Shown piece by piece: positions 50,885 to 62,190 of a stretch of DNA of 64,000 nt. A program made the translations under genes and the position numbers. The DNA is from Marinobacter sp. HL-58. Lineage in GTDB: Bacteria > Pseudomonadota > Gammaproteobacteria > Pseudomonadales > Oleiphilaceae. The stretch spans positions 1 to 64,000 of the forward strand of contig NZ_LIHP01000013.1 of NCBI RefSeq assembly GCF_001314605.1. Direction: 5' to 3'. Within the stretch, counting starts at the first letter, position 1. Each line of letters starts with the position of its first letter. Below the pieces are notes generated by a model. The model was not told the origin of the DNA. It did not search any database and saw only the letters and a list, made by a program, of their open reading frames with translations.

Positions 50885-51187
50885 ATGGAAACTCGCGCCA
50901 TCCTGGCGGAGAAATCCGTAAGCATCTCTGCGTTACGCAACAATCCTGCGCAGTATTTTGGCGATCAACCGGTTGCCGTTCTGAACCACAACAAGCCTGC
51001 GGGCTACATGATTGGCGCTGAACTCTTCGAAGAAATGATGAAGCTGATTGGCGACAAGGAAGCAGCCCGTGCGTTTCGTGGCCGTTTCCGGCCATCCGGG
51101 GCCGAGCTGGCTGAGTACTGCAAGCGCGGCGCCAAAGCCCTGGAAGAGGCCAAGCCTGAGGATCTGGAGGAATTCACCCGGTGGTAG
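50885..51187 (+). CDS. yafN: Antitoxin YafN (Phd/YefM family)
   Basis: 100 residues. It follows E. coli YafN along its length: ILAEKSVSISALRNNPAQYF at the N-terminus, QPVAVLNHNKPAGYMI, and FRPSGAELAEY. The Phd/YefM N-terminal half binds DNA and represses the operon; the C-terminal half masks the toxin. Followed with a 7-base overlap by yafO. Confidence 0.92.
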   Translation: METRAILAEKSVSISALRNNPAQYFGDQPVAVLNHNKPAGYMIGAELFEEMMKLIGDKEAARAFRGRFRPSGAELAEYCKRGAKALEEAKPEDLEEFTRW

Positions 51188-51579
51188 CGGTATTCACGTC
51201 CAAAATCATCGAGGATTCGATGCCGGAAGGACAACTAAAGGATCTGGTGGAAGACTTCAGGGAATACAAGTCGACAGGACGCCGCCCCGAAAATTTTGGA
51301 CGTGATGTAGCCTACGACAGTGATGTAACGCTCAAGATCGTTCGGGAAGAGGAAGTTCAGCACATTCACCTGAAGGACGCTGAATCGAATTGGCCTGTCA
51401 GGGCAATGCAATTCCAGATGACCAGCGACTGCCACTTGCTCTATTGTCCGGGAGCAATGAACGACGATCACTATCTGCTGATCGCTATCCTGGAGCCCGA
51501 CGCTCATCGACTCGCTCGGGATAACAACGTCATGCATCGCGTTGGAGAGATGGCTGAGAGATTCCGGAACGTGTATTAA
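51181..51579 (+). CDS. yafO: Toxin YafO (mRNA interferase)
   Basis: 132 residues, GTG start overlapping yafN. It matches E. coli YafO: VFTSKII at the start, RPENFGRDVAYD, IHLKDAESNWP, DCHLLYCPGAMND and LLIAILEPDAHRLARDNNVMHRVG (cited in part). YafO cuts mRNA on the ribosome. The last matching motif includes conserved His/Arg, so the toxin looks intact. May help keep this accessory DNA in the population. Confidence 0.92.
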   Translation: MVAVFTSKIIEDSMPEGQLKDLVEDFREYKSTGRRPENFGRDVAYDSDVTLKIVREEEVQHIHLKDAESNWPVRAMQFQMTSDCHLLYCPGAMNDDHYLLIAILEPDAHRLARDNNVMHRVGEMAERFRNVY

Positions 51580-51601
51580 CTGCCCGTTGCGAGCTGGATA
51601 G

Positions 51602-52447
51602 TTAGTGAGCGGCAAAGTCGAGGATTCTGCCTTCGTCAGTGTGGAGAGTTACCTCAATACCGTCGCCCGCCAGGTTAGTAACGGTCTCCTCGAAAGCCTC
51701 CCGTCGAATATCACGAGCTTGGCCGGGTTCCGGGCCTTTCACCGGGAATAACACCGGGCCTTTAAGCAGGTGCCGCTTACGCAACTGGTCGACTTTCAGC
51801 TTCCACCGGTCGCCGTGTTCAATGATTGCAGTAGAATCGGTCTGTCCCAAGAACAACGGCTTGATAACCTTGATGGCGTCACCATCCTTTTGTTCAACAA
51901 ATGGGAAGGTAACACCATAAAGCTGATCTTCGATTCGGCGTTTTGTAAAACGCCGAGCCAGATCTCGCTGTTCGAGGAGTTTCTTTACACCCTTCTCAAG
52001 AATGGTTTCCTGATACTCCCTGGTGACGAAGTTCCTGCCAACGTAAAATTTATAGAGTTCAGCTAAGGCATGCTCCGGATTCTCCGCCAGAACTACCCGC
52101 TGCTCGCTGAACCGCACAATGGTCTCACGGGGTCGGATCAGCTCCTGAAACAGGCCTTTATGGAATCCATATTCCCGGTCGTTGTCACCAAACTCGCTGA
52201 TCTGCTCCTTCAGCATCGCCTGCACTCTGTGCAGCTCAACCTCCAGATTCGCCATGGTTTTCAGATATAGCCCTCTGTCCAGCTCCTCAAAAAACTGGGT
52301 GATACGGGCATGTTTTTTCCGAAGAAGTTTAAAGCCCAGGTAGCGAGTTTTCGGCGCCCACAGTAAAATACCGACGTTGGCGAACTCGCCCGTCTCGATA
52401 TAAGGCATAAACCGCACGATGGCGTATTGGCAAGCTAGCCTGGTCAT
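51602..52447 (-). CDS. DUF3037 family protein
   Basis: 281 residues from the ATG at 52447, which overlaps the stop of the HipA-like gene (ATGA). N-terminal CQYAIVRFMPYIETGEFANVGILLW is the DUF3037 hallmark. The rest is mixed helix and strand with no catalytic motif I recognise. DUF3037 is commonly found as the second gene of a two-gene unit with a HipA-type kinase, as here; its function is unknown. Confidence 0.83.
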   Translation of the reverse strand: MTRLACQYAIVRFMPYIETGEFANVGILLWAPKTRYLGFKLLRKKHARITQFFEELDRGLYLKTMANLEVELHRVQAMLKEQISEFGDNDREYGFHKGLFQELIRPRETIVRFSEQRVVLAENPEHALAELYKFYVGRNFVTREYQETILEKGVKKLLEQRDLARRFTKRRIEDQLYGVTFPFVEQKDGDAIKVIKPLFLGQTDSTAIIEHGDRWKLKVDQLRKRHLLKGPVLFPVKGPEPGQARDIRREAFEETVTNLAGDGIEVTLHTDEGRILDFAAH

Positions 52448-53196
52448 TTCCAGTTCCAAAAGTTTTCACTACGAAAACGCTGTAAGTGTTTCAGGAATGA
52501 ATCCGGATCAAAATCCAGCTTCATCGTCATTTCCGGATCTCTGTAAAACCACTCTTCGGGGATGGCCTGGACGATATTATCCCACTCCGTCAAGGCCTGT
52601 TCCATCCTTTCAGTATAGTGCTGCCGCTCGATCAAGTCATCGAATACGACCGGCGCACTGTCCTTGAAGGCATGGTACCGAAGGAAATCGTCAGCATCGA
52701 ATTCTGGGTCAAATGACTGATTGTGATCAATAACCACGAGGCGCTGCGCATCCGGCTCCCAAAAGAGATTCGGATTACCACTGTTCTCAGTCAGCATGCG
52801 ATCCACATTCAAAATCCACCAATCAAATACAAGGACTGCTGTTCGCAGCTCAACGGGTACTTCACTCACCTGCGAAAACGCCAGTTCCGTCACTATCTGC
52901 TCTTGCGACCCAAACGCAGGGCCTGAGCCGAGATCGGCAGCATCATTTGCCGTCATTAACTCGGCTAACTCATCGGAGACAGACACAATTCTGAAGGGCG
53001 CCAGCGGAATGCCAAAGATCAGTGCAAGATTGCCCGCGATCCATTCCTTGATCTGGCTGTCCCGGCCCGCGCCAAAGCCTTTGACGAAATAGACATTGCC
53101 ATCATCCCCTCTGCAGATAAAAGGCCGCGTCATTCCATGCTCTGAGCGACGCATAACCTCGACTATCTCGACTTCAGGCAGCTGGACGCTCGACAC
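52444..53196 (-). CDS. HipA-like kinase family protein
   Basis: 250 residues with a GTG start (ATG at 53154 is an alternative). Short HipA-type kinase fold: FICRGDDGNVYFVKGFG holds the ATP-binding Lys, the catalytic loop reads WWILNVDRMLTENSGNPNLF and the metal-binding motif VVIDHNQSF. It lacks the N-terminal lobe of toxin HipA (about 440 residues) and no HipB-like antitoxin gene lies nearby; DUF3037 follows instead. Probably phosphorylates an unknown protein. Confidence 0.78.
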   Translation of the reverse strand: MSSVQLPEVEIVEVMRRSEHGMTRPFICRGDDGNVYFVKGFGAGRDSQIKEWIAGNLALIFGIPLAPFRIVSVSDELAELMTANDAADLGSGPAFGSQEQIVTELAFSQVSEVPVELRTAVLVFDWWILNVDRMLTENSGNPNLFWEPDAQRLVVIDHNQSFDPEFDADDFLRYHAFKDSAPVVFDDLIERQHYTERMEQALTEWDNIVQAIPEEWFYRDPEMTMKLDFDPDSFLKHLQRFRSENFWNWK

Positions 53197-54120: not shown

Positions 54121-54435
54121 TCAAAATGGCATGAAATAAACAAGCGAGTAATAACTGACAGCAGCAATCAATGCTGAGATCAGCAGCCCCATTGACGTCA
54201 GCAAGGCAACAGTGGCCACGATGGCTAAAGAAATCGTCGCTGCGAGAGGCTCCTGGGCCAATTCGCTGTAGAAAATATAGACAACAAAATTGATGAAGAC
54301 CGCTGACGGAACCGCCTGCTCCACATAAACCTTCCAGGATGGGGCAAGCTCAAACCGTAGTAACACCGGTAAAACCCTGACTATTAAACTGGTTGCAAAC
54401 AGCGCGAGAATAGCCAGGGTTGCAGCGTTATTCAT
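54121..54435 (-). CDS. azlD: AzlD-family membrane protein
   Basis: 104 residues, four hydrophobic segments; the small partner of AzlC in branched-chain amino acid export. Start ATG overlaps the azlC stop (ATGA). Typical AzlD features include the first helix LFATSLIVRVLPVLLR and the AVPSAVF turn before the second helix. Last gene of the minus-strand cassette that begins with araC or the GGTV peptide gene. Confidence 0.85.
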   Translation of the reverse strand: MNNAATLAILALFATSLIVRVLPVLLRFELAPSWKVYVEQAVPSAVFINFVVYIFYSELAQEPLAATISLAIVATVALLTSMGLLISALIAAVSYYSLVYFMPF

Positions 54436-55154
54436 AGCCTGGCCCTGGCGAGCAGGATTGACGTCACGATGATGCCAGGCACCCAAAAGTAGACCGGTCC
54501 CAGCGAATATATCAGCACCAAAGCAACAGCCAGACAGAGGACTACTGCTCCCACCCGGGATGCGGAAAACCGGTCATCGACAAATATCCGCAACCTGAGC
54601 TGGCTTACCGAAAGAAATACCAGCACTGCGCTGGCCGAAAACCCCAGATTGACATTATCCCCAAGCCAGGGAAGATGAAGGGATTGCCCCAACGCCGCCC
54701 CTAGCAACGCTGACAGAACCCATGTGATAAAAATGATGCTCCGGATCAAGAAAACAGTCTGAGGGCCGTCCTTTGGACTTTCGGTTGCATAGGCTTCATC
54801 CCCTAACATGTGAGCCGTAAGGTATCGGCTCACTTTTCTATGCGGTAGTCTGCCAGAGGAGACGTAAGCAATCGGAAAATAACGGCTGTTTATAGAAGCA
54901 GTGACGAAGAGCATGGTTAAAAACCCCGAGCCGGACTGGGAGAGCGGCAACACCGCAAACTGCCCGCTTCCTGAGAAGCCAAGTACGCTTACAAGTAGCA
55001 CGTCCAGAATGCTCCAGTCAGCTTGGTTCGCTATAAAACCAAACAGCATGCTGACTGGAGCCACTGCTAACGCTGGCGGCACGACTCGGGATAGAACACG
55101 GGGCTCCCCCAGTGTTCCTTTTGCCCCCTCACAGCTAACGCTCACGCATTCCAC
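54432..55154 (-). CDS. azlC: AzlC-family branched-chain amino acid exporter
   Basis: 240 residues, GTG start, about seven hydrophobic segments. The AzlC signature region is FSGSGQFAVLPL ... TASINSRYFPIAYVSSGRLPH (cited in part), followed by HMLGDEAYATESPKDG. AzlCD pairs expel leucine, isoleucine, valine and analogues. Located 15 bases after the dioxygenase gene, so the exported product may be a hydroxylated amino acid or a peptide-derived molecule (inference). Confidence 0.87.
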   Translation of the reverse strand: MECVSVSCEGAKGTLGEPRVLSRVVPPALAVAPVSMLFGFIANQADWSILDVLLVSVLGFSGSGQFAVLPLSQSGSGFLTMLFVTASINSRYFPIAYVSSGRLPHRKVSRYLTAHMLGDEAYATESPKDGPQTVFLIRSIIFITWVLSALLGAALGQSLHLPWLGDNVNLGFSASAVLVFLSVSQLRLRIFVDDRFSASRVGAVVLCLAVALVLIYSLGPVYFWVPGIIVTSILLARARL

Positions 55155-55169
55155 CCGGCCTACAATCGC

Positions 55170-55907
55170 TCAGCATAGCTCCAAGCCTCTTGCTCGTTTC
55201 TCATGAGCAGGTCCGTACGCCCGATTTTCCCATTTATTGATTTCGACAACCCAGATATCGCGATAACCGGTGCTCCCCTCTTCAGGCTCAATATTTGTTG
55301 CGTAATGAACGTACTGCTCATCATCAATAATGATCGCTTCGTTCTCCTTTAGCTCATGCCTGAAAACCACTTTACCTGTGTTGGGATTAATTACTTGAGT
55401 CTCACCCCCTACAACGTTCTCTCTGGCGGCAACAGCAATCACGCTAAATTGATGGCCATCTCTATGGGGGCCCTCGGGCACCGTAACCCCACGATACTCC
55501 TCATTGGCAATGACCCGGATCTGATTAACATTCAGGTGGAAGATTTGCCCCGTATCCACGGGTAACTCCTGCATAATGCAAGACATCAGTGGCGAAGGAT
55601 CTATCGTTAACTGCTCTCTGTATCTCAGAACGCCACCTGCTTCTTTCAGCTTTATATATTCGGGAGATTGAATGTAACGCCTCTTCGGAAGCAATCCGAA
55701 TATCCACTCACCTTCCTCGAAGTATCCAAAATACTGTGACAATCTTATTTTTCTCAGTCGCCCCATGCTGTGACAGTCTCTGGGAAGCTCGTCAAAAGAG
55801 GCTATGATTTCATGAGACAGTGCAGGGGTTTTTACAACACAAAAACCATTATTCACGTACTGGTCATTTGCAAATTTCAAATCAGGCTTGGTTAACGACA
55901 TGTTCAT
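55170..55907 (-). CDS. 2-oxoglutarate/Fe(II) dioxygenase (PF10014 type, L-isoleucine hydroxylase-like)
   Basis: 245 residues. It resembles the 2OG-Fe dioxygenase family that includes bacterial L-isoleucine 4-hydroxylase. The iron triad is visible as His148 and Asp150 in PEGPHRDGHQF and His201 in YVHYATNIEP; Arg216 in GYRDIWVV would hold 2-oxoglutarate. Members hydroxylate free aliphatic amino acids such as Ile, Leu, Met, Val or Thr. Here the gene starts two bases after the radical SAM stop (GGAGG before ATG), so it likely acts in the same pathway, on the Thr/Val-rich peptide or on a released amino acid. Confidence 0.82.
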   Translation of the reverse strand: MNMSLTKPDLKFANDQYVNNGFCVVKTPALSHEIIASFDELPRDCHSMGRLRKIRLSQYFGYFEEGEWIFGLLPKRRYIQSPEYIKLKEAGGVLRYREQLTIDPSPLMSCIMQELPVDTGQIFHLNVNQIRVIANEEYRGVTVPEGPHRDGHQFSVIAVAARENVVGGETQVINPNTGKVVFRHELKENEAIIIDDEQYVHYATNIEPEEGSTGYRDIWVVEINKWENRAYGPAHEKRARGLELC

Positions 55908-55909
55908 GA

Positions 55910-57415
55910 TTAGGCCTCCGCTGCCCTTTCTTCAAGATCAAAAGTCGCAATCTCGTGTGGCTTCAATGACTCGATGTGTTTCTTGGTGATACCCCTATAA
56001 AACTCACAGGCAGCAGGTTCAACTACATCAACCGCGTCGTACTTTTTCTCCAGAGGCCCTAAGCAAAGCCCGCCACAGAATCCTTCAATTTCACAGCCTT
56101 TACAAAACTCGGGGTTGTTACGCCGCAACCGTGCGTGGCTGAGATACTCCTCCGAATCCAGAATTCGCTCCTCATCGGATATATTTCCCAGCAGAGTGGA
56201 GCCCGCCTTACATGAAAATACGGACCCGTTTGGCTCAATGCTAAATTGCGCACCTTTCGCTGAGCAGTTTTTAAACCCTCGGTCAGCAACTACGTCAAAC
56301 CCCAGCATCACCTGGAAGATCTGGTGCCAGTACCCTGTCAGAACGACGCCCCGAGATCGTCCGTACTCAACTACCCGCCAAAGGCGGTCTACAATATTTT
56401 GCGTACCAAACTCGGAATAAAATGTGGGGTCAAAGTCTACAACGACTCCTATTTCACGTGCCCCAACGTCAACAGCCAGATCCACAATTGATTCATTGAA
56501 GTCATTCCATGTGTCTGAGGTCAAAGCCGAATTGATCGCTACACGGTTGTTGTACTTTCTCAACATTCTGAACCCGTCCATTACAACAGGAGTGCTGTCA
56601 TCTCCGTTTTTGAGAGGACGGTTCGGACTCGTTGGAGAATCAAAACTCACACAAACAGCAACATTATATTTTGAGAACGTTTCCGAAACTTCTTTTGTTA
56701 TTAGAGAACCATTAGTAACCGTGGAATAATTTATTATTATGTCGTGATTTTCGCCATTGCCAAAGTGCTCAAGAACCGCCTTCACTGTTCGCCAGTTCAA
56801 CAGCGGCTCGCCGCCAAAGAATTGGACCATCACCTCTCTGACGCCAGCAGACTTTGCAACGGCCAATGAAGATTCCACATAGGAAACGCCATCTCCCGGC
56901 TTCATTGCTCGATTTTTAGGATCATACTGATGCTCCAAGCGCTCCTTGGACGCGTAGATGGAGTCTTCGATATTTACTTTTATGCCTTCTCTGGCAATTA
57001 TTCTGGATTCGTCTACCCGATTAAAATCATCCTCTGCAGAAAGCTCTTTCCCCTGAACACCTTCAAAACAATAGGTACAACCAAAATTGCAAGCATTAGC
57101 GAGTATTAGCTGAATAACGTTGATCTTCTTTTCAACGGCGGGCCAGACGTCTTCTTTACTTTCAGTCTCGCTCCCATTCTTCACAATCAACCGTCGCGCA
57201 ATGAGTTGCTGTATCAACTCCTCAGAGCGGTCACTTGCTTCTATATCCATGAAGTCATTTGATAAATATTTCGGAGCTGAGAAACTTTCCAGTAATTTTT
57301 TACTGTTGCCATCCAAAAAGCATAGTCCACCAAGCTGCCTGTGGTATGCAGCATAGCGATCACCTACCTTGTTTAAAATGACATCCTTTGAAAGCGCATA
57401 GCGACTATTAGCCAT
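55910..57415 (-). CDS. Radical SAM/SPASM peptide-modifying enzyme
   Basis: 501 residues from the ATG at 57415, chosen because an AGGT site precedes it and the upstream extension would translate a hairpin. N-terminal 80 residues resemble a PqqD-like peptide-recognition region (RQLGGLCFLDGNSKKLLES). The radical SAM cluster is C109-x3-C113-x2-C116 in ANACNFGCTYCFEG. GGEPLLNW follows near 195. The C-terminal SPASM region holds at least seven cysteines (NCSAKGAQ, VFSCKAG, EFCKGCEIEGFCGGLCLG, AACEF) for further 4Fe-4S clusters. Such enzymes make crosslinks, epimers or other changes in ribosomal peptides. Substrate inferred: the GGTV peptide just upstream. AT-richer than the core genes. Confidence 0.9.
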   Translation of the reverse strand: MANSRYALSKDVILNKVGDRYAAYHRQLGGLCFLDGNSKKLLESFSAPKYLSNDFMDIEASDRSEELIQQLIARRLIVKNGSETESKEDVWPAVEKKINVIQLILANACNFGCTYCFEGVQGKELSAEDDFNRVDESRIIAREGIKVNIEDSIYASKERLEHQYDPKNRAMKPGDGVSYVESSLAVAKSAGVREVMVQFFGGEPLLNWRTVKAVLEHFGNGENHDIIINYSTVTNGSLITKEVSETFSKYNVAVCVSFDSPTSPNRPLKNGDDSTPVVMDGFRMLRKYNNRVAINSALTSDTWNDFNESIVDLAVDVGAREIGVVVDFDPTFYSEFGTQNIVDRLWRVVEYGRSRGVVLTGYWHQIFQVMLGFDVVADRGFKNCSAKGAQFSIEPNGSVFSCKAGSTLLGNISDEERILDSEEYLSHARLRRNNPEFCKGCEIEGFCGGLCLGPLEKKYDAVDVVEPAACEFYRGITKKHIESLKPHEIATFDLEERAAEA

Positions 57416-57449
57416 ATCAATACCTAACCAATTTCCAGCTTTTAAATAA

Positions 57450-57479
57450 CGAGGTAACGCATTCACATACGCTACCTCG
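57450..57479 (-). terminator. Hairpin between the GGTV peptide gene and the radical SAM gene
   Basis: CGAGGTA and TACCTCG arms, followed on the minus strand by GTTATTTAAA. It starts 15 bases after the peptide stop. It looks like a partial terminator that would keep the peptide more abundant than its enzymes. Confidence 0.6.
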
Positions 57480-57493
57480 AGTACCAATGGTGA

Positions 57494-57661
57494 TTACTTG
57501 GTCAGTTTGGTTTTCAACTTGGTTGAGCCGAGTGAAGCTCCAACTGTACCGCCGACTGTTCCACCTACGGTTCCTCCAACAGTACCGCCAACCGTGCCAC
57601 CCACTGTTCCTCCAACAGTGCCGCCGACAGTTCCACCGATCGTTGAAATATTCTGGTTCAT
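57494..57661 (-). CDS. Candidate RiPP precursor peptide with eight GGTV repeats
   Basis: 55 residues: an eight-residue start MNQNISTI, then GGTV eight times without a mismatch, then GASLGSTKLKTKLTK, a basic tail. The site AGGAAA lies eight bases before ATG. No Cys, Trp, Tyr, Phe, His, Asp or Glu. All eight 12-base repeat units differ in DNA sequence by synonymous codons. It is followed by a radical SAM/SPASM enzyme, a 2OG dioxygenase and AzlCD on the same strand. The leader is much shorter than in most RiPPs, so recognition may use the lysine-rich tail. Nothing in my knowledge of RiPP families matches a GGTV core. A structural Gly-rich peptide is the alternative. Confidence 0.75.
   Translation of the reverse strand: MNQNISTIGGTVGGTVGGTVGGTVGGTVGGTVGGTVGGTVGASLGSTKLKTKLTK
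57542..57637 (-). repeat. Eight 12-base units encoding GGTV
   Basis: Ninety-six bases in eight in-frame units, each GGN-GGN-ACN-GTN. Third-position bases vary so that no two units are identical, while the protein repeat is exact. Confidence 0.95.
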
Positions 57662-57711
57662 AGTCACTTTCCTTTTCTTTATGGATTTGCACTAAGCACA
57701 GAACTATCTCC

Positions 57712-57740
57712 GTGCTCTTATTTGCGCTCTTTTTGAGCAC
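57712..57740. promoter_or_regulatory. GTGCTC/GAGCAC inverted repeat upstream of the peptide gene
   Basis: Six-base arms 17 bases apart, about 50 bases before the GGTV peptide start, with a related AAGCACA nearby (57694-57700). A possible binding site for the AraC-type regulator encoded next, or part of the terminator of that gene. Confidence 0.35.
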
Positions 57741-57898
57741 AAATCCTTGTGCCAGGCCCAACATAATCAATGTTAAAAAGTTCAAGGCATCCGGCTATTC
57801 AGTTGCCAGCATAGAACTGAGTGCGGGCCATAATCTTGAAAGATCGTGCAGAAAAGGGGTTTTGAAATGAGGAGAGGATCACAGAATTCTGCGTTGGT

Positions 57899-58705
57899 TC
57901 AGCGAAGCATTCTGAGCCACCGAGCCGGGGTTATGCCGTAGGCCCGCGTGAAGTGATTGGTAAAATGGCTCTGATCACTAAAACCAACCGTAACGGCAAC
58001 TTCTGCAAGCGATGAACCGCACTGCATCAGTTCACGAGCTTTATCCAGCCGGCGCATGGTTAAGTAGCGGTAGGGGCTTGTACCAAAAAGGCTGCGGAAG
58101 TCCCTGGCGAGCCCCCAGCGATCCCGGCCAGTAACAGCCTCGAGTTCATCCATTGTGATTGCTGCGTTCAATGAGTCATGCATAAATTCTCTAGCCCGCT
58201 GAGCAGCGGCAATATTCAGCTTCTTGCGTTTCATGGGATTACCTGCGGCTGCAGCCAATGCTTGCGCCAGATCGAATATGCAGTCCGCTTCCTCCAGGTA
58301 ATCCAAGGGTTGATCCAAATTCTGCAGAAGCGCACTGGAGGCGGCCATCAAGCGTGGATCCTGAGAAAGCCCACCTGGAATATAAGGCAAGGGCCTTCCG
58401 CCCAACACCTCTTGAAGCAAGGCGGGTTCGACGTACATTATTCGGTATCTGAAGCCTTCATCAGTTCCCGCCTCTCCGTCGTGGAGTTCGTCGGGATAAA
58501 TGGCAATCGTTCCGCCGGGAAGACTATTTCGCAAACTTCCCCGATAGCGGAAGTTGTGAACTCCCGAAAGTGTATGGCCGATTGCATAGGTGTCGTGGCG
58601 ATGGGGGGTGTAACCGGTGCCCACAAAATAGGCTTCGAGGCGATCCAGAGAAGCCGCCTTTTCCCCGCGTCTCACCCAGTCACCCCTTCGGATCTGTGAT
58701 GACAT
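57899..58705 (-). CDS. AraC-family transcriptional regulator
   Basis: 268 residues. N-terminal AraC-type cupin (about 20-150; GYTPHRHDTYAIGHTLSGVHNFRY in part), C-terminal double helix-turn-helix (about 165-265) ending VTVGFSDQSHFTNHFTRAYGITPARW, the AraC signature. Regulators of this shape often sit beside LysE- or AzlC-type amino acid exporters and sense amino acids. It is in the same direction as the GGTV cassette with 237 bases between, so it is probably its activator. Confidence 0.87.
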   Translation of the reverse strand: MSSQIRRGDWVRRGEKAASLDRLEAYFVGTGYTPHRHDTYAIGHTLSGVHNFRYRGSLRNSLPGGTIAIYPDELHDGEAGTDEGFRYRIMYVEPALLQEVLGGRPLPYIPGGLSQDPRLMAASSALLQNLDQPLDYLEEADCIFDLAQALAAAAGNPMKRKKLNIAAAQRAREFMHDSLNAAITMDELEAVTGRDRWGLARDFRSLFGTSPYRYLTMRRLDKARELMQCGSSLAEVAVTVGFSDQSHFTNHFTRAYGITPARWLRMLR

Positions 58706-58950: not shown

Positions 58951-61900
58951 ATGCCCAAGTTCACCGAGGACAAACTGGAACAGGCTATCATCACCCTGCT
59001 AGGTGAGCAGGGGTTTCCGTATACACCCGGCCCTTCCCTTTCCCGATCCCCCAGCGATGTTCTGATCCGTGACGACCTGCGTTCTTTTCTGGCCTGCCGA
59101 TACGCCTCCGACGGCATCACCGACCATGAAATCACCACGATCATCCACCGGCTGGACACGCTTTCTGCTGCTGACCTTTATTCCTCCAATAAAACCATTC
59201 ACAAATGGGTGGCCGACGGCTTTTTGCTGAAACGGGAAGATCACACGCAAAAAGACCTCTACATTCAGTTGCTGGACTACGCAGGGCTGCCTGAACAGCG
59301 CCAGCCAGAGCCTGGAGATGTGGACACGTTCGTCGCGGACGATGGTGAGGGCTACCATACCGGCGGCAATATCTATCGGGTGGTCAACCAATTGGAGATT
59401 GAAGGGCTGGAGAAGCGCATTCCCGATGCCATTCTCTACATCAACGGTCTGCCGCTGGTGGTGTTCGAGTTCAAGAGCGCAACCCGTGAGAACGCCACCA
59501 TCCACGATGCCTGGAAGCAGCTCACCGTTCGTTACGCTCGTGATATTCCGGAACTGATGAAGTACAACGCGCTGTGTGTGATCAGCGATGGTGTTAACTC
59601 TCGCCTTGGCTCACTGTTCGCGCCCTACGAGTACTTTTATACCTGGCGCAAGGTGACCGGTAACGAATCCATCGAGCAGGATGGCATCAATGCGCTGCAC
59701 ACGATGATTCAGGGGTTGTTCGACCACAACCGGCTGCGCGACGTCATCCGGCATTTCATCTACTTCCCGGACAAATCCCACCGGGAAGAGAAAATCGTTT
59801 GCCGGTACCCGCAGTTCTATGCCGCCGGCAAGCTGTTCCAGAACATTCTGGAGCACCGTAAGCCGGAGGGTGACGGCAAAGGCGGCACCTATTTCGGGGC
59901 CACCGGCTGCGGCAAGAGCTTTACCATGCTGTTTCTCACCCGCCTACTGATGAAAAGCGTGGATTTTGAAAGCCCCACCATTGTGCTGATCACGGACAGA
60001 ACCGATCTGGACGACCAGCTCTCGGGCCAGTTCACCAACGCCAAGGAATACATCGGTGACCAGACGGTGATCAGTGTGGAAAGCCGCAGTCATTTGCGGG
60101 AACTGCTGAAGGGGCGCACCAGTGGCGGGGTTTTTCTGACCACGATTCACAAGTTCACGGAAGACACCGAACTGCTCACAGATCGCTACAACGTGATCTG
60201 CATTTCCGATGAGGCCCACCGCAGCCAGATCAACCTGGACCAGAAGATCCGGGTAACGGAGAACGGTGTCAGGCGTACCTTCGGCTTTGCCAAATACCTG
60301 CACGATTCATTGCCAAACGCCACCTATGTCGGCTTCACCGGCACCCCCGTTGACGCCACCCTGGATGTCTTTGGCGAGGTGGTGGACAGCTACACCATGA
60401 CCGAATCGGTGAAGGACGAAATCACCGTACCCATTGTGTATGAAGGCCGGGCCGCCCGGGTGATTCTCGACAATGAAAAATTGCAGGAAATCGAGGCCTA
60501 CTACGACCAGTGTGCGGAAGACGGCGCCAGCGACTACCAGATCGAAGAAAGCAAGAAAGCCAGCGCCAACATGAGTGTGATTCTGGGTGATCCGGACCGT
60601 TTGCGAGCTCTGGCGAAAGACTTTGTGCACCACTATGAGCGACGGGTGAACGAAGGGGCAACCGTTAAAGGCAAGGCGATGTTCGTGTGCAGCAAGCGAG
60701 AGATCGCCTACAACTTCTGGCAGGAACTGATTGCGCTTCGGCCCCAGTGGAATGAGGTGATGATGTGTGAACCCGGGGCCAACCTTTCTGAAAAGAACCG
60801 CAAAGAGATCAAGCCCATGGAGCGGGTCAAACTGATCATGACCCGGGGCAAGGATGATCCCAAAGCACTCTGGGACATGCTCGGCACAGCGGACTATCGC
60901 AAGGAGTTGGACCGCCAGTTCAAGAGCGCCAAGTCCAATTTCAAGATCGCCATTGTGGTGGATATGTGGCTCACCGGTTTTGATGTGCCTTTCCTGGATA
61001 CCCTCTACATCGACAAGCCCATTCAGCGCCACAACCTGATCCAGACCATTTCCCGGGTCAACCGCAAATTCGAGGGAAAACGCAAAGGCCTGGTGGTGGA
61101 CTACATCGGCATCAAGAAGCAGATGAACCTTGCCCTGGCCCACTACAACAAGGCCGACCAGCAGAACATCGAAGAAATCGAACAATCGATCACTGTGGTG
61201 AAAGACCACCTGGACCTGCTTGGCAAACTGTTTCACAAGTTTGATGCCCGCCCGTATTACGAGGGTAGCCCGGTGCAACAGCTGAACTGCCTGAACCAGG
61301 CCGCCGAGTTCGCCCAACTTACCGACAAGATCGAAAAACGCTTTATGGCTTTGGTGAAACGCCTGAAAGCGGCCTATGACATTTGCAGTGGCTCAGAGCG
61401 TGTAACCCAGGCCGAGCGGGACCGTATTCATTTCTATCTGGCCGTTCGCTCCATTGTGTTCAAACTGACCCGAGGCCATGCACCTGACACCGCCCAGATG
61501 AACGCGAAGGTGCGGGAGATGATGACGGAGGCCCTGAAAGCCGATGGCGTGGAGGAGATTTTCAGGCTCGGCGAGGATGGTGCCGAGGCGCGGAACATTT
61601 TTGACGATGACTATCTGGCCAAGATCGAGAAGATCAAGCTGCCCAACACCAAAATCAAACTGTTGCAGCAATTGCTGGCGAAGGCCATCGAGGATTTCAA
61701 GCGGGTCAATAAAGCTCGCGGTGTCGACTTCTCGAAGCAGCTTCAGGCGCTGGTAGAGAAATACAACGAACGAAAAGAAGCAGACGTGCTGAGGGGAGAG
61801 GTTGTAGAGGATTTCACCGACGAGATTATCGAGCGCTACATGGGCATGATTCAGGCCCTGAAACATGAAGTTGGCTCCTTTAAGGAGCTGGGGATCGACC

Positions 61901-62190
61901 TGGAAGTCAAAGCCTTTTACGACATCCTCAAGGGCCTGGCAGCCAAATATGACTTCACCTACCCCGAAGAGAAGCTTCTCCCCCTTTCTGAAGCGGTGAA
62001 GGCTGTGGTGGACGATAAGATTAAATATACGGACTGGAACCAACGAGAAGACATCAAGGCCGAACTGAAGGTGGACCTCATACTGTTGCTAGGGAAGCAT
62101 GGCTATCCTCCCATTGACCGGGATGAGGTCTACAGGGAAATCTTTGAACAGGCAGAAAACTTCAAGAAATACCATCCCTCCACCTCATAA
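58951..62190 (+). CDS. hsdR: Type I restriction system endonuclease/translocase HsdR
   Basis: Restriction subunit that moves DNA and cuts it. 1079 residues. The PD-(D/E)xK nuclease is near 165-190 (RIPDAILYINGLPLVVFEFKSA in part), Walker A is GATGCGKSFTM near 310, the DEAH box is CISDEAHRSQ, then FTGTPVDATLDVFGE and the helicase motif VI-like QTISRVNRKFEGK. The coiled-coil C-terminal region for assembly with HsdM/S follows. Intact. Separated from hsdS by 8.2 kb of accessory genes, whereas hsdM-S-R are normally adjacent. It converges with a DUF2505 gene, overlapping by six bases. Confidence 0.95.
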   Translation: MPKFTEDKLEQAIITLLGEQGFPYTPGPSLSRSPSDVLIRDDLRSFLACRYASDGITDHEITTIIHRLDTLSAADLYSSNKTIHKWVADGFLLKREDHTQKDLYIQLLDYAGLPEQRQPEPGDVDTFVADDGEGYHTGGNIYRVVNQLEIEGLEKRIPDAILYINGLPLVVFEFKSATRENATIHDAWKQLTVRYARDIPELMKYNALCVISDGVNSRLGSLFAPYEYFYTWRKVTGNESIEQDGINALHTMIQGLFDHNRLRDVIRHFIYFPDKSHREEKIVCRYPQFYAAGKLFQNILEHRKPEGDGKGGTYFGATGCGKSFTMLFLTRLLMKSVDFESPTIVLITDRTDLDDQLSGQFTNAKEYIGDQTVISVESRSHLRELLKGRTSGGVFLTTIHKFTEDTELLTDRYNVICISDEAHRSQINLDQKIRVTENGVRRTFGFAKYLHDSLPNATYVGFTGTPVDATLDVFGEVVDSYTMTESVKDEITVPIVYEGRAARVILDNEKLQEIEAYYDQCAEDGASDYQIEESKKASANMSVILGDPDRLRALAKDFVHHYERRVNEGATVKGKAMFVCSKREIAYNFWQELIALRPQWNEVMMCEPGANLSEKNRKEIKPMERVKLIMTRGKDDPKALWDMLGTADYRKELDRQFKSAKSNFKIAIVVDMWLTGFDVPFLDTLYIDKPIQRHNLIQTISRVNRKFEGKRKGLVVDYIGIKKQMNLALAHYNKADQQNIEEIEQSITVVKDHLDLLGKLFHKFDARPYYEGSPVQQLNCLNQAAEFAQLTDKIEKRFMALVKRLKAAYDICSGSERVTQAERDRIHFYLAVRSIVFKLTRGHAPDTAQMNAKVREMMTEALKADGVEEIFRLGEDGAEARNIFDDDYLAKIEKIKLPNTKIKLLQQLLAKAIEDFKRVNKARGVDFSKQLQALVEKYNERKEADVLRGEVVEDFTDEIIERYMGMIQALKHEVGSFKELGIDLEVKAFYDILKGLAAKYDFTYPEEKLLPLSEAVKAVVDDKIKYTDWNQREDIKAELKVDLILLLGKHGYPPIDRDEVYREIFEQAENFKKYHPSTS

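Follow-up and report, generated by a model that had tools for sequence, protein, structure and literature searches.

A ribosomal repeat peptide as the probable disposable scaffold of a free cyclopropyl amino acid in the tvg cassette of Marinobacter sp. HL-58

What becomes of a ribosomal peptide once a radical S-adenosylmethionine (SAM) enzyme has closed cyclopropane rings along it? The question is raised by six minus-strand genes at positions 54121–58705 of a 64,000-nucleotide stretch of Marinobacter sp. HL-58 (contig NZ_LIHP01000013.1, positions 1 to 64,000; hereafter the window). This cassette is orthologous to the tvg pathway that was published for Halomonas anticariensis in 2022, and is not uncharacterised, the term applied to it in an earlier reading of the window made from its letters (the sequence-only reading). 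It is real and functional-looking, and its enzyme chemistry is already in print; hence the cassette adds one more example. The second half of the pathway has been missing, and here gene contexts predict its outcome, a free cyclopropyl amino acid, and point to which enzyme acts on which substrate. The repeat peptide TvgA probably serves as a throwaway scaffold on which a valine/isoleucine analogue of the cyclopropylglycine (CPG) type arises, to be set free, oxidised and, in most hosts, exported. New here are the co-occurrence of enzyme and repeat peptide in 23 of 23 intact loci, the identity of TvgD and TvgE as AzlC and AzlD, the structural neighbours of TvgC and the alternative gene contexts of relatives. 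If the prediction is true, it would define a ribosomal route to free non-proteinogenic amino acids that needs no aminoacyl-tRNA-dependent ligases, which occur in other scaffold-peptide pathways, and the nonribosomal peptide synthetase (NRPS) and ligase clusters named below would be places to seek CPG-containing natural products.

The first half of the pathway comes from work on H. anticariensis tvgABCDE. Kostenko et al. (2022; PMC9062424) report that TvgB links the gamma-carbons of Val to each other within TVGG repeats and so produces CPG; a peptide of four repeats became lighter by 2, 4 and 6 Da, and CPG was established by mass spectrometry, nuclear magnetic resonance and a synthetic standard. 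A 2024 review repeats this chemistry for strain DSM 16096 (PMC11002830). As presented in the original report, TvgC is only a putative dioxygenase, TvgD/E are transporters or peptidases, and the final product is left to future work (PMC9062424). The strain of that study, Litchfieldella (Halomonas) anticariensis FP35 (DSM 16096), is represented here by locus L006. The window and L006 cassettes share a TVGG-repeat precursor, a radical SAM/SPASM enzyme, an Fe/2-oxoglutarate (2OG) dioxygenase, two membrane transporter genes and gene order, and an AraC gene, outside the five published tvg genes, lies beside both. They differ in the precursor, which has 8 units in the window and 11 in L006 and lacks the terminal GGT-F/S unit in the window, and in that the window cassette adjoins a type I restriction gene.

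All six genes of the kinds listed in the sequence-only reading are present (araC, repeat peptide, radical SAM/SPASM, dioxygenase, azlC and azlD), and Pfam places the five larger proteins (Radical_SAM/Fer4_12/SPASM; 2OG-Fe_Oxy_2; AzlC; AzlD; AraC_binding with HTH_18). Their borders were right in part: the 4-base overlap of azlC and azlD stands, with azlD corrected to start at ATG 54435, but the start of the radical SAM gene moves from 57487 to ATG 57415. This start, which leaves 78 bases between the peptide and enzyme genes, is likely because the 24 preceding residues differ from the sister genome at 9 positions, whereas the remainder is 95% identical.

Homology, motifs and a TigE-like fold identify tvgB (55910–57415, minus strand) as the putative radical SAM/SPASM cyclopropyl synthase that converts Val to CPG. 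TvgB is 74% identical to its counterpart in L006 and 49–77% identical to the 15 other rows of a 16-row alignment, in which CxxxCxxC and seven SPASM-region cysteines, ten cysteines altogether, are invariant (16/16). Equally invariant in the aligned relatives (16/16) is a Gly-Tyr-Trp motif (GYW; G361 Y362 W363), which occurs in 0/11 more distant radical SAM relatives that the same scan returned, partial sequences among them. Lien et al. 2024 are said to have described GYW as the hallmark of cyclopropyl synthases and to have solved the structure of TigE, an enzyme that reportedly turns Ile of TIGSVS repeats into methyl-CPG. The TvgB model (mean predicted local distance difference test score, pLDDT, 73.9) has its best match, over residues 2–495, in PDB entry 8vpo, titled TigE, from Paramaledivibacter caminithermalis (Z 34.2, root mean square deviation 3.2, 419 residues aligned), followed by a second-best match at Z 24.5. 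The likeness to TigE extends over the near-full fold, GYW and the SPASM region, at 35% identity in the structural alignment. Residues 3–79 of the model form beta strands and helices that align to TigE; TvgB gave no Pfam match to a PqqD-like recognition element (RRE), its N-terminal part not having been searched alone. Among the 25 of 54 NCBIfam matches listed, no maturase model reached its cut-off and only a general SPASM-domain model passed; the best maturase among them, the PapB-type ranthipeptide maturase (NF047865; 92.9 bits against a cut-off of 340), was rejected. We consider it very likely, on this homology, that the conversion of Val to cyclopropylglycine transfers to the window enzyme. 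The earlier proposal of a radical SAM cassette altering Val, in the manner of ribosomally synthesized and post-translationally modified peptides (RiPPs), is borne out by the orthologue, which makes CPG from Val. That Thr is also altered was dropped, no evidence for it having been found; the mass loss in the orthologue is placed on Val.

The substrate gene tvgA (57494–57661, minus strand) follows a 237-base intergenic region (57662–57898, minus strand) where, by position, its promoter is expected. It translates into a 55-residue precursor, MNQNISTI(GGTV)8GASLGSTKLKTKLTK, whose eight GGTV units constitute the repeating TVGG motif of tvg precursors. All eight units are distinct in DNA (8/8), with 84 pairwise third-position differences and 0 at first and second positions, a zero that is partly by construction, the units having been chosen by their amino acids. 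That the units differ only silently argues that the repeat is kept as protein by selection. A recent DNA tandem duplication is ruled out, all units differing silently.

TvgA has no Pfam match above cut-off, and its identification as a glycine-zipper protein was rejected, since the weak similarity of the unmodified peptide stays under the Pfam cut-off. The same similarity, together with the long regular repeat, would suit a modified peptide that stays intact in use, perhaps as a poly-CPG peptide with a structural or membrane-active role. Such a use is nonetheless quite improbable, given that the unit number drifts from 4 to 11 across intact loci, that the Pfam matches are weak and under cut-off, and that the exporter family of the cassette is not known for 55-residue peptides.

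Outside the repeats, the conserved feature of TvgA is its C-terminal tail (LKTKLTK plus stop; 57494–57517, minus strand), a candidate enzyme-recognition sequence that is kept in relatives (for example LKTRLSK, LNDRLTK and LKHSLSK), mostly as L-x-x-x-L-S/T-K. The N-terminal part is variable and falls to about five residues. A conserved tail combined with a short, variable N terminus implies that TvgB may recognise TvgA at its C terminus, which would be unusual for RiPP precursors. Within the repeat, Thr and Gly are nearly as conserved as Val. Moreover, TVGG, the GGTI/AGTI repeats of Actinocrinis (L021) and the PTITP segment of actinobacterial relatives all hold Thr and then Val or Ile, which suggests that Thr-Val/Ile may be a shared recognition unit of these enzymes.

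A scan of 84,980 species genomes returned 33 loci, with L003–L024 as close relatives (49–77% identity; L022–L024 are partial matches). The intact loci number 23: the window, L083 (in the sister genome G007), L003–L014, L015–L019, L021, L084, L085 and L086. Loci of identical DNA were counted once (L004/L036, L011/L037, L020/L087, L003/L070 and L007/L073), and four with broken enzymes (L020, L022, L023 and L024) were left out. In 23 of 23 loci, the window included, the intact enzyme has a repeat peptide upstream, with GTV units in 22 and GGTIAGTI in L021; L003 and L018 share gene coordinates and peptide, so these are not 23 independent cases. Moreover, GTVGGTV-type coding DNA was present in 15 of the 18 genomes searched, each time solely at the tvg locus; it is missing from Actinocrinis and from two genomes that have enzyme fragments. 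The sequence-only reading had taken homologues of the enzyme with no repeat peptide beside them as the finding that would speak against it, and none occurs among the intact close loci. Further out the association gives way: among distant actinobacterial loci, the five whose peptide was identified have a non-repetitive one. Among the close loci, two of the four with broken enzymes have none. These two, L022 and L024, hold enzyme fragments only, and L020 and L023 keep the peptide beside a broken enzyme; four such relatives suggest frequent loss of the pathway. That TvgA stays an unmodified glycine-rich peptide while the adjacent radical SAM enzyme works on something else is very improbable, considering the co-occurrence in every intact locus and the reaction of the orthologous enzyme and peptide in vitro.

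The other genes travel with this pair to differing extents. TvgC is a neighbour in 22/23 intact loci, AzlC in 19/23 and AzlD in 18/22 testable ones, absence of AzlCD being judged within the flanks covered. The AraC-type regulator of the window (araC; 57899–58705, minus strand; AraC_binding and HTH_18) is a probable activator of the cassette, and a homologue of at least 50% identity adjoins 15/23 intact loci; at L010 only 1.6 kb upstream of the enzyme was covered, so the absence of AraC there carries no meaning.

On which substrate, then, would the remaining enzymes act? The Fe(II)/2OG dioxygenase of the PF10014/BsmA family, tvgC (55170–55907, minus strand), matches PF10014 at 111 bits and is 61% identical to TvgC of L006. 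Its model (mean pLDDT 85.6) is nearest to HrmJ (Z 29.9) and BelL (Z 25.1), with IDO (Z 19.7; 18% identity in the structural alignment) and TqaL (Z 17.6) behind them. These structural neighbours use free amino acids: BelL and HrmJ are described as acting on free 6-nitronorleucine and TqaL on free L-valine (PMC10764440), and IDO as acting on free Ile. HilA/HilB are reported to act on free isoleucine and its hydroxyl derivative, HilB, like TvgC a PF10014 protein, taking the free hydroxyisoleucine (PMC3684760). The systems of the isoleucine hydroxylases IDO and HilB, unlike tvg, are without a ribosomal peptide. HrmJ and BelL, which share the fold of TvgC, belong to the hormaomycin and belactosin pathways, where an NRPS or ATP-grasp ligases are described as taking up the free cyclopropane amino acid (PMC10764440), a parallel to the fate proposed here. 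They differ from tvg in the origin of the ring, which a 2OG enzyme forms from 6-nitronorleucine, whereas in tvg a radical SAM enzyme forms it on a ribosomal peptide.

The two membrane proteins carry the same signal. TvgD (54432–55154, minus strand) is AzlC, the large subunit of an amino-acid exporter (PF03591, 90.3 bits, cut-off 32.1), and TvgE (54121–54435, minus strand) is AzlD, the small subunit (PF05437, 26.0 bits, cut-off 23.7); no peptidase domain was matched in either with Pfam. TvgD scores 35.8 bits against the NCBIfam azlC equivalog TIGR00346, below the cut-off of 332.35, and hence is a member of the AzlC family, not the azaleucine-resistance equivalog. AzlCD of B. subtilis reportedly exports or detoxifies 4-azaleucine, histidine and asparagine (PMC10882977). 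The suggestion that an amino-acid-type exporter and the lack of a cassette protease point to an amino acid or a very small product therefore survives, with AzlC/AzlD identified and no protease in the cassette. These proteins bear equally on the possibility that tvg makes a true RiPP, in which TvgC would oxidise the poly-CPG peptide and TvgD/E would cleave it and export short pieces, T-Cpg-G-G for example. That account lies near the expectation of the discoverers (Kostenko et al., PMC9062424), and it gains from TvgB itself working on a peptide and from repeat Thr and Gly being conserved nearly like Val. It fits poorly with TvgD/E as members of a known amino-acid export family with no matched peptidase domain, with a cassette that has neither peptide exporter nor protease, with the free amino acids used by the structural neighbours of TvgC, and with the free-amino-acid enzymes that adjoin some relatives' loci. 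We regard it as unlikely, though a serious alternative.

A free amino acid is indicated jointly by AzlC/AzlD, by the placement of TvgC near free-amino-acid enzymes and by the alternative neighbours. Four intact loci are without AzlCD in the flanks covered: L015 and L017 (Massilia and Pseudoduganella), L021 (Actinocrinis) and L019 (Rhizorhapis). In L015 and L017 its place is taken by a TauD-family dioxygenase, a full-length threonine dehydratase and an NRPS. The TauD-family dioxygenase adjoins L010, L015, L017 and L084, and the enzyme of L015, the only one tested, matches an asparagine oxygenase and L-arginine hydroxylases, which are free-amino-acid enzymes. L010 and L084 retain AzlCD and add a relative of the L015/L017 dioxygenase (53% identity), a carbamoyltransferase and a LysE-type exporter. 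In L019 (8270–9220; Rhizorhapis suberifaciens) a WelO5-like 2OG enzyme directly follows TvgC. L021 (24–7515) encodes a (GGTIAGTI)4 peptide, upstream of which lie genes for a major facilitator superfamily (MFS) transporter and two ATP-grasp proteins, one of them with an L-amino-acid ligase domain; its radical SAM enzymes with GYW are two in number and differ from each other.

A free-amino-acid fate of the modified peptide, against the published expectation, is on these grounds moderately likely, and the reading of the cassette as a whole, from CPG peptide through degradation and oxidation of free CPG to export, reasonably so. The AraC protein would turn the cassette genes on, and TvgA would be translated as a (GGTV)8 peptide with its conserved C-terminal tail. 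TvgB would then turn Val of TvgA into cyclopropylglycine, a step shown for the orthologue and transferred by homology. Ordinary cellular peptidases would degrade modified TvgA, each copy releasing as many as eight free L-cyclopropylglycine molecules; TvgC would oxidise free CPG, hydroxylated CPG being the simplest guess; and AzlCD (TvgD/E) would export the oxidised amino acid. As an analogue of valine and isoleucine, this product would most simply serve as an antimetabolite; a few relatives would incorporate that same amino acid into a larger molecule by means of an NRPS or ATP-grasp amino-acid ligases. Only slightly better than even are the chances of a wider proposal, in which the whole tvg family is a ribosomal amino-acid factory: each throwaway repeat peptide would give many copies of (methyl-)cyclopropylglycine at once and then be degraded, TvgC would oxidise the free form, hosts would differ only in its use (AzlCD export, NRPS loading or dipeptide ligation), and NRPS-type producers would be shielded from the isoleucine analogue so formed by their duplicated threonine dehydratase.

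Several points weigh against this reading. In the original work the peptide itself was expected to be the substrate of oxidation by TvgC, with hydrolysis and export falling to TvgD/E (PMC9062424). Some lower structural matches of TvgC (Z 12.5 or less) are prolyl hydroxylases that act on proteins, so its fold alone leaves a peptide substrate possible. AzlCD is promiscuous and hence does not define the product, and with no peptidase in the cassette, release to single residues is assumed. What was shown in the orthologue is the modification; that the amino acid is released, oxidised and then used is our inference. The NRPS contexts amount to two loci and the ligase context to one, and the adjacency in L021 could be due to chance. 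Furthermore, the first adenylation domain (A-domain) of the L017 NRPS does not look valine-like. A later A-domain of the L017 NRPS (L063) reads DAFWLGGTFK, the code positions having been mapped by eye via an LgrA alignment; this string resembles a Val code. Both NRPS regions are interrupted by runs of N.

The genomes of L015 and L017 each encode another full-length threonine dehydratase besides the one in the cluster, and an extra copy would fit an isoleucine/valine analogue as product. Cluster and own housekeeping copies are 73–74% identical in the catalytic part and 58–60% in the regulatory part, whereas the two housekeeping enzymes agree at 82% and 83%, respectively; the comparison comprises two cluster and four other copies. 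Housekeeping-invariant sites are changed in both cluster copies at 9/70 regulatory and 7/140 catalytic positions (Fisher p 0.055). Measured against two outside copies, however, the regulatory part is 50–52% and 46–47% identical for the cluster enzymes and 53–54% and 45–47% for the housekeeping ones. This too counts against the proposal: the cluster regulatory part appears hardly more diverged than that of the housekeeping enzymes, and altered feedback control is not supported. In L015 (8309–13167) and L063 (6800–14600), the tvg genes run into the NRPS, together with an AsnO-like dioxygenase and the extra threonine dehydratase.

The cassette is rare and patchy. Counting the centre genome each time, carriers make up 2/58 relatives and 3/390 genomes in the order, 1/399 around Massilia, 6/388 around Pseudomonas (one of them broken) and 9/343 around Actinocrinis, all but one of the last at about 30% identity. 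Viral contigs gave 1 relative, at 22% identity, and plasmids 13 records, all below 60% identity and the best at 29%. The window and G007 are collinear over 12.4 kb at 84% identity, and on that account they probably share the tvg region by descent.

The cassette had been described as AT-richer than flanking core genes. It is AT-rich, its 1-kb windows having a G+C content of 45–53%, lower than the 59% median of window bases 1–49000, but the flanks are not core: the immediate neighbours, a type I restriction subunit and a HipA-like kinase, are non-core genes of only 50–56% G+C. On one side, window positions 50885–53196 encode a YafO-type toxin, a Phd/YefM-like antitoxin (just under the Pfam cut-off), a DUF3037 protein and the HipA-like kinase; on the other flank, the type I restriction subunit occupies 58951–62190. 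The cassette may lie in a defence island.

Actinobacterial relatives of the enzyme (about 30% identity) form a further group. Five loci (L061, L052, L055, L056 and L060) have a non-repetitive, single-core peptide with a PTITP segment, and this peptide (..SSRPC.FVSPDKGNAPTITP..) precedes the enzyme. GYW is present in the enzyme of L061 and in 9/9 loci tested of the Actinocrinis sample, L051 being the same place as L061. As judged from these motifs and gene contents, L061-type loci represent another type of putative cyclopropyl-synthase cluster. In L061 (9558–19530) the enzyme is followed by two carbamoyltransferases, a PhyH dioxygenase, an MFS transporter and a flavin oxidoreductase.

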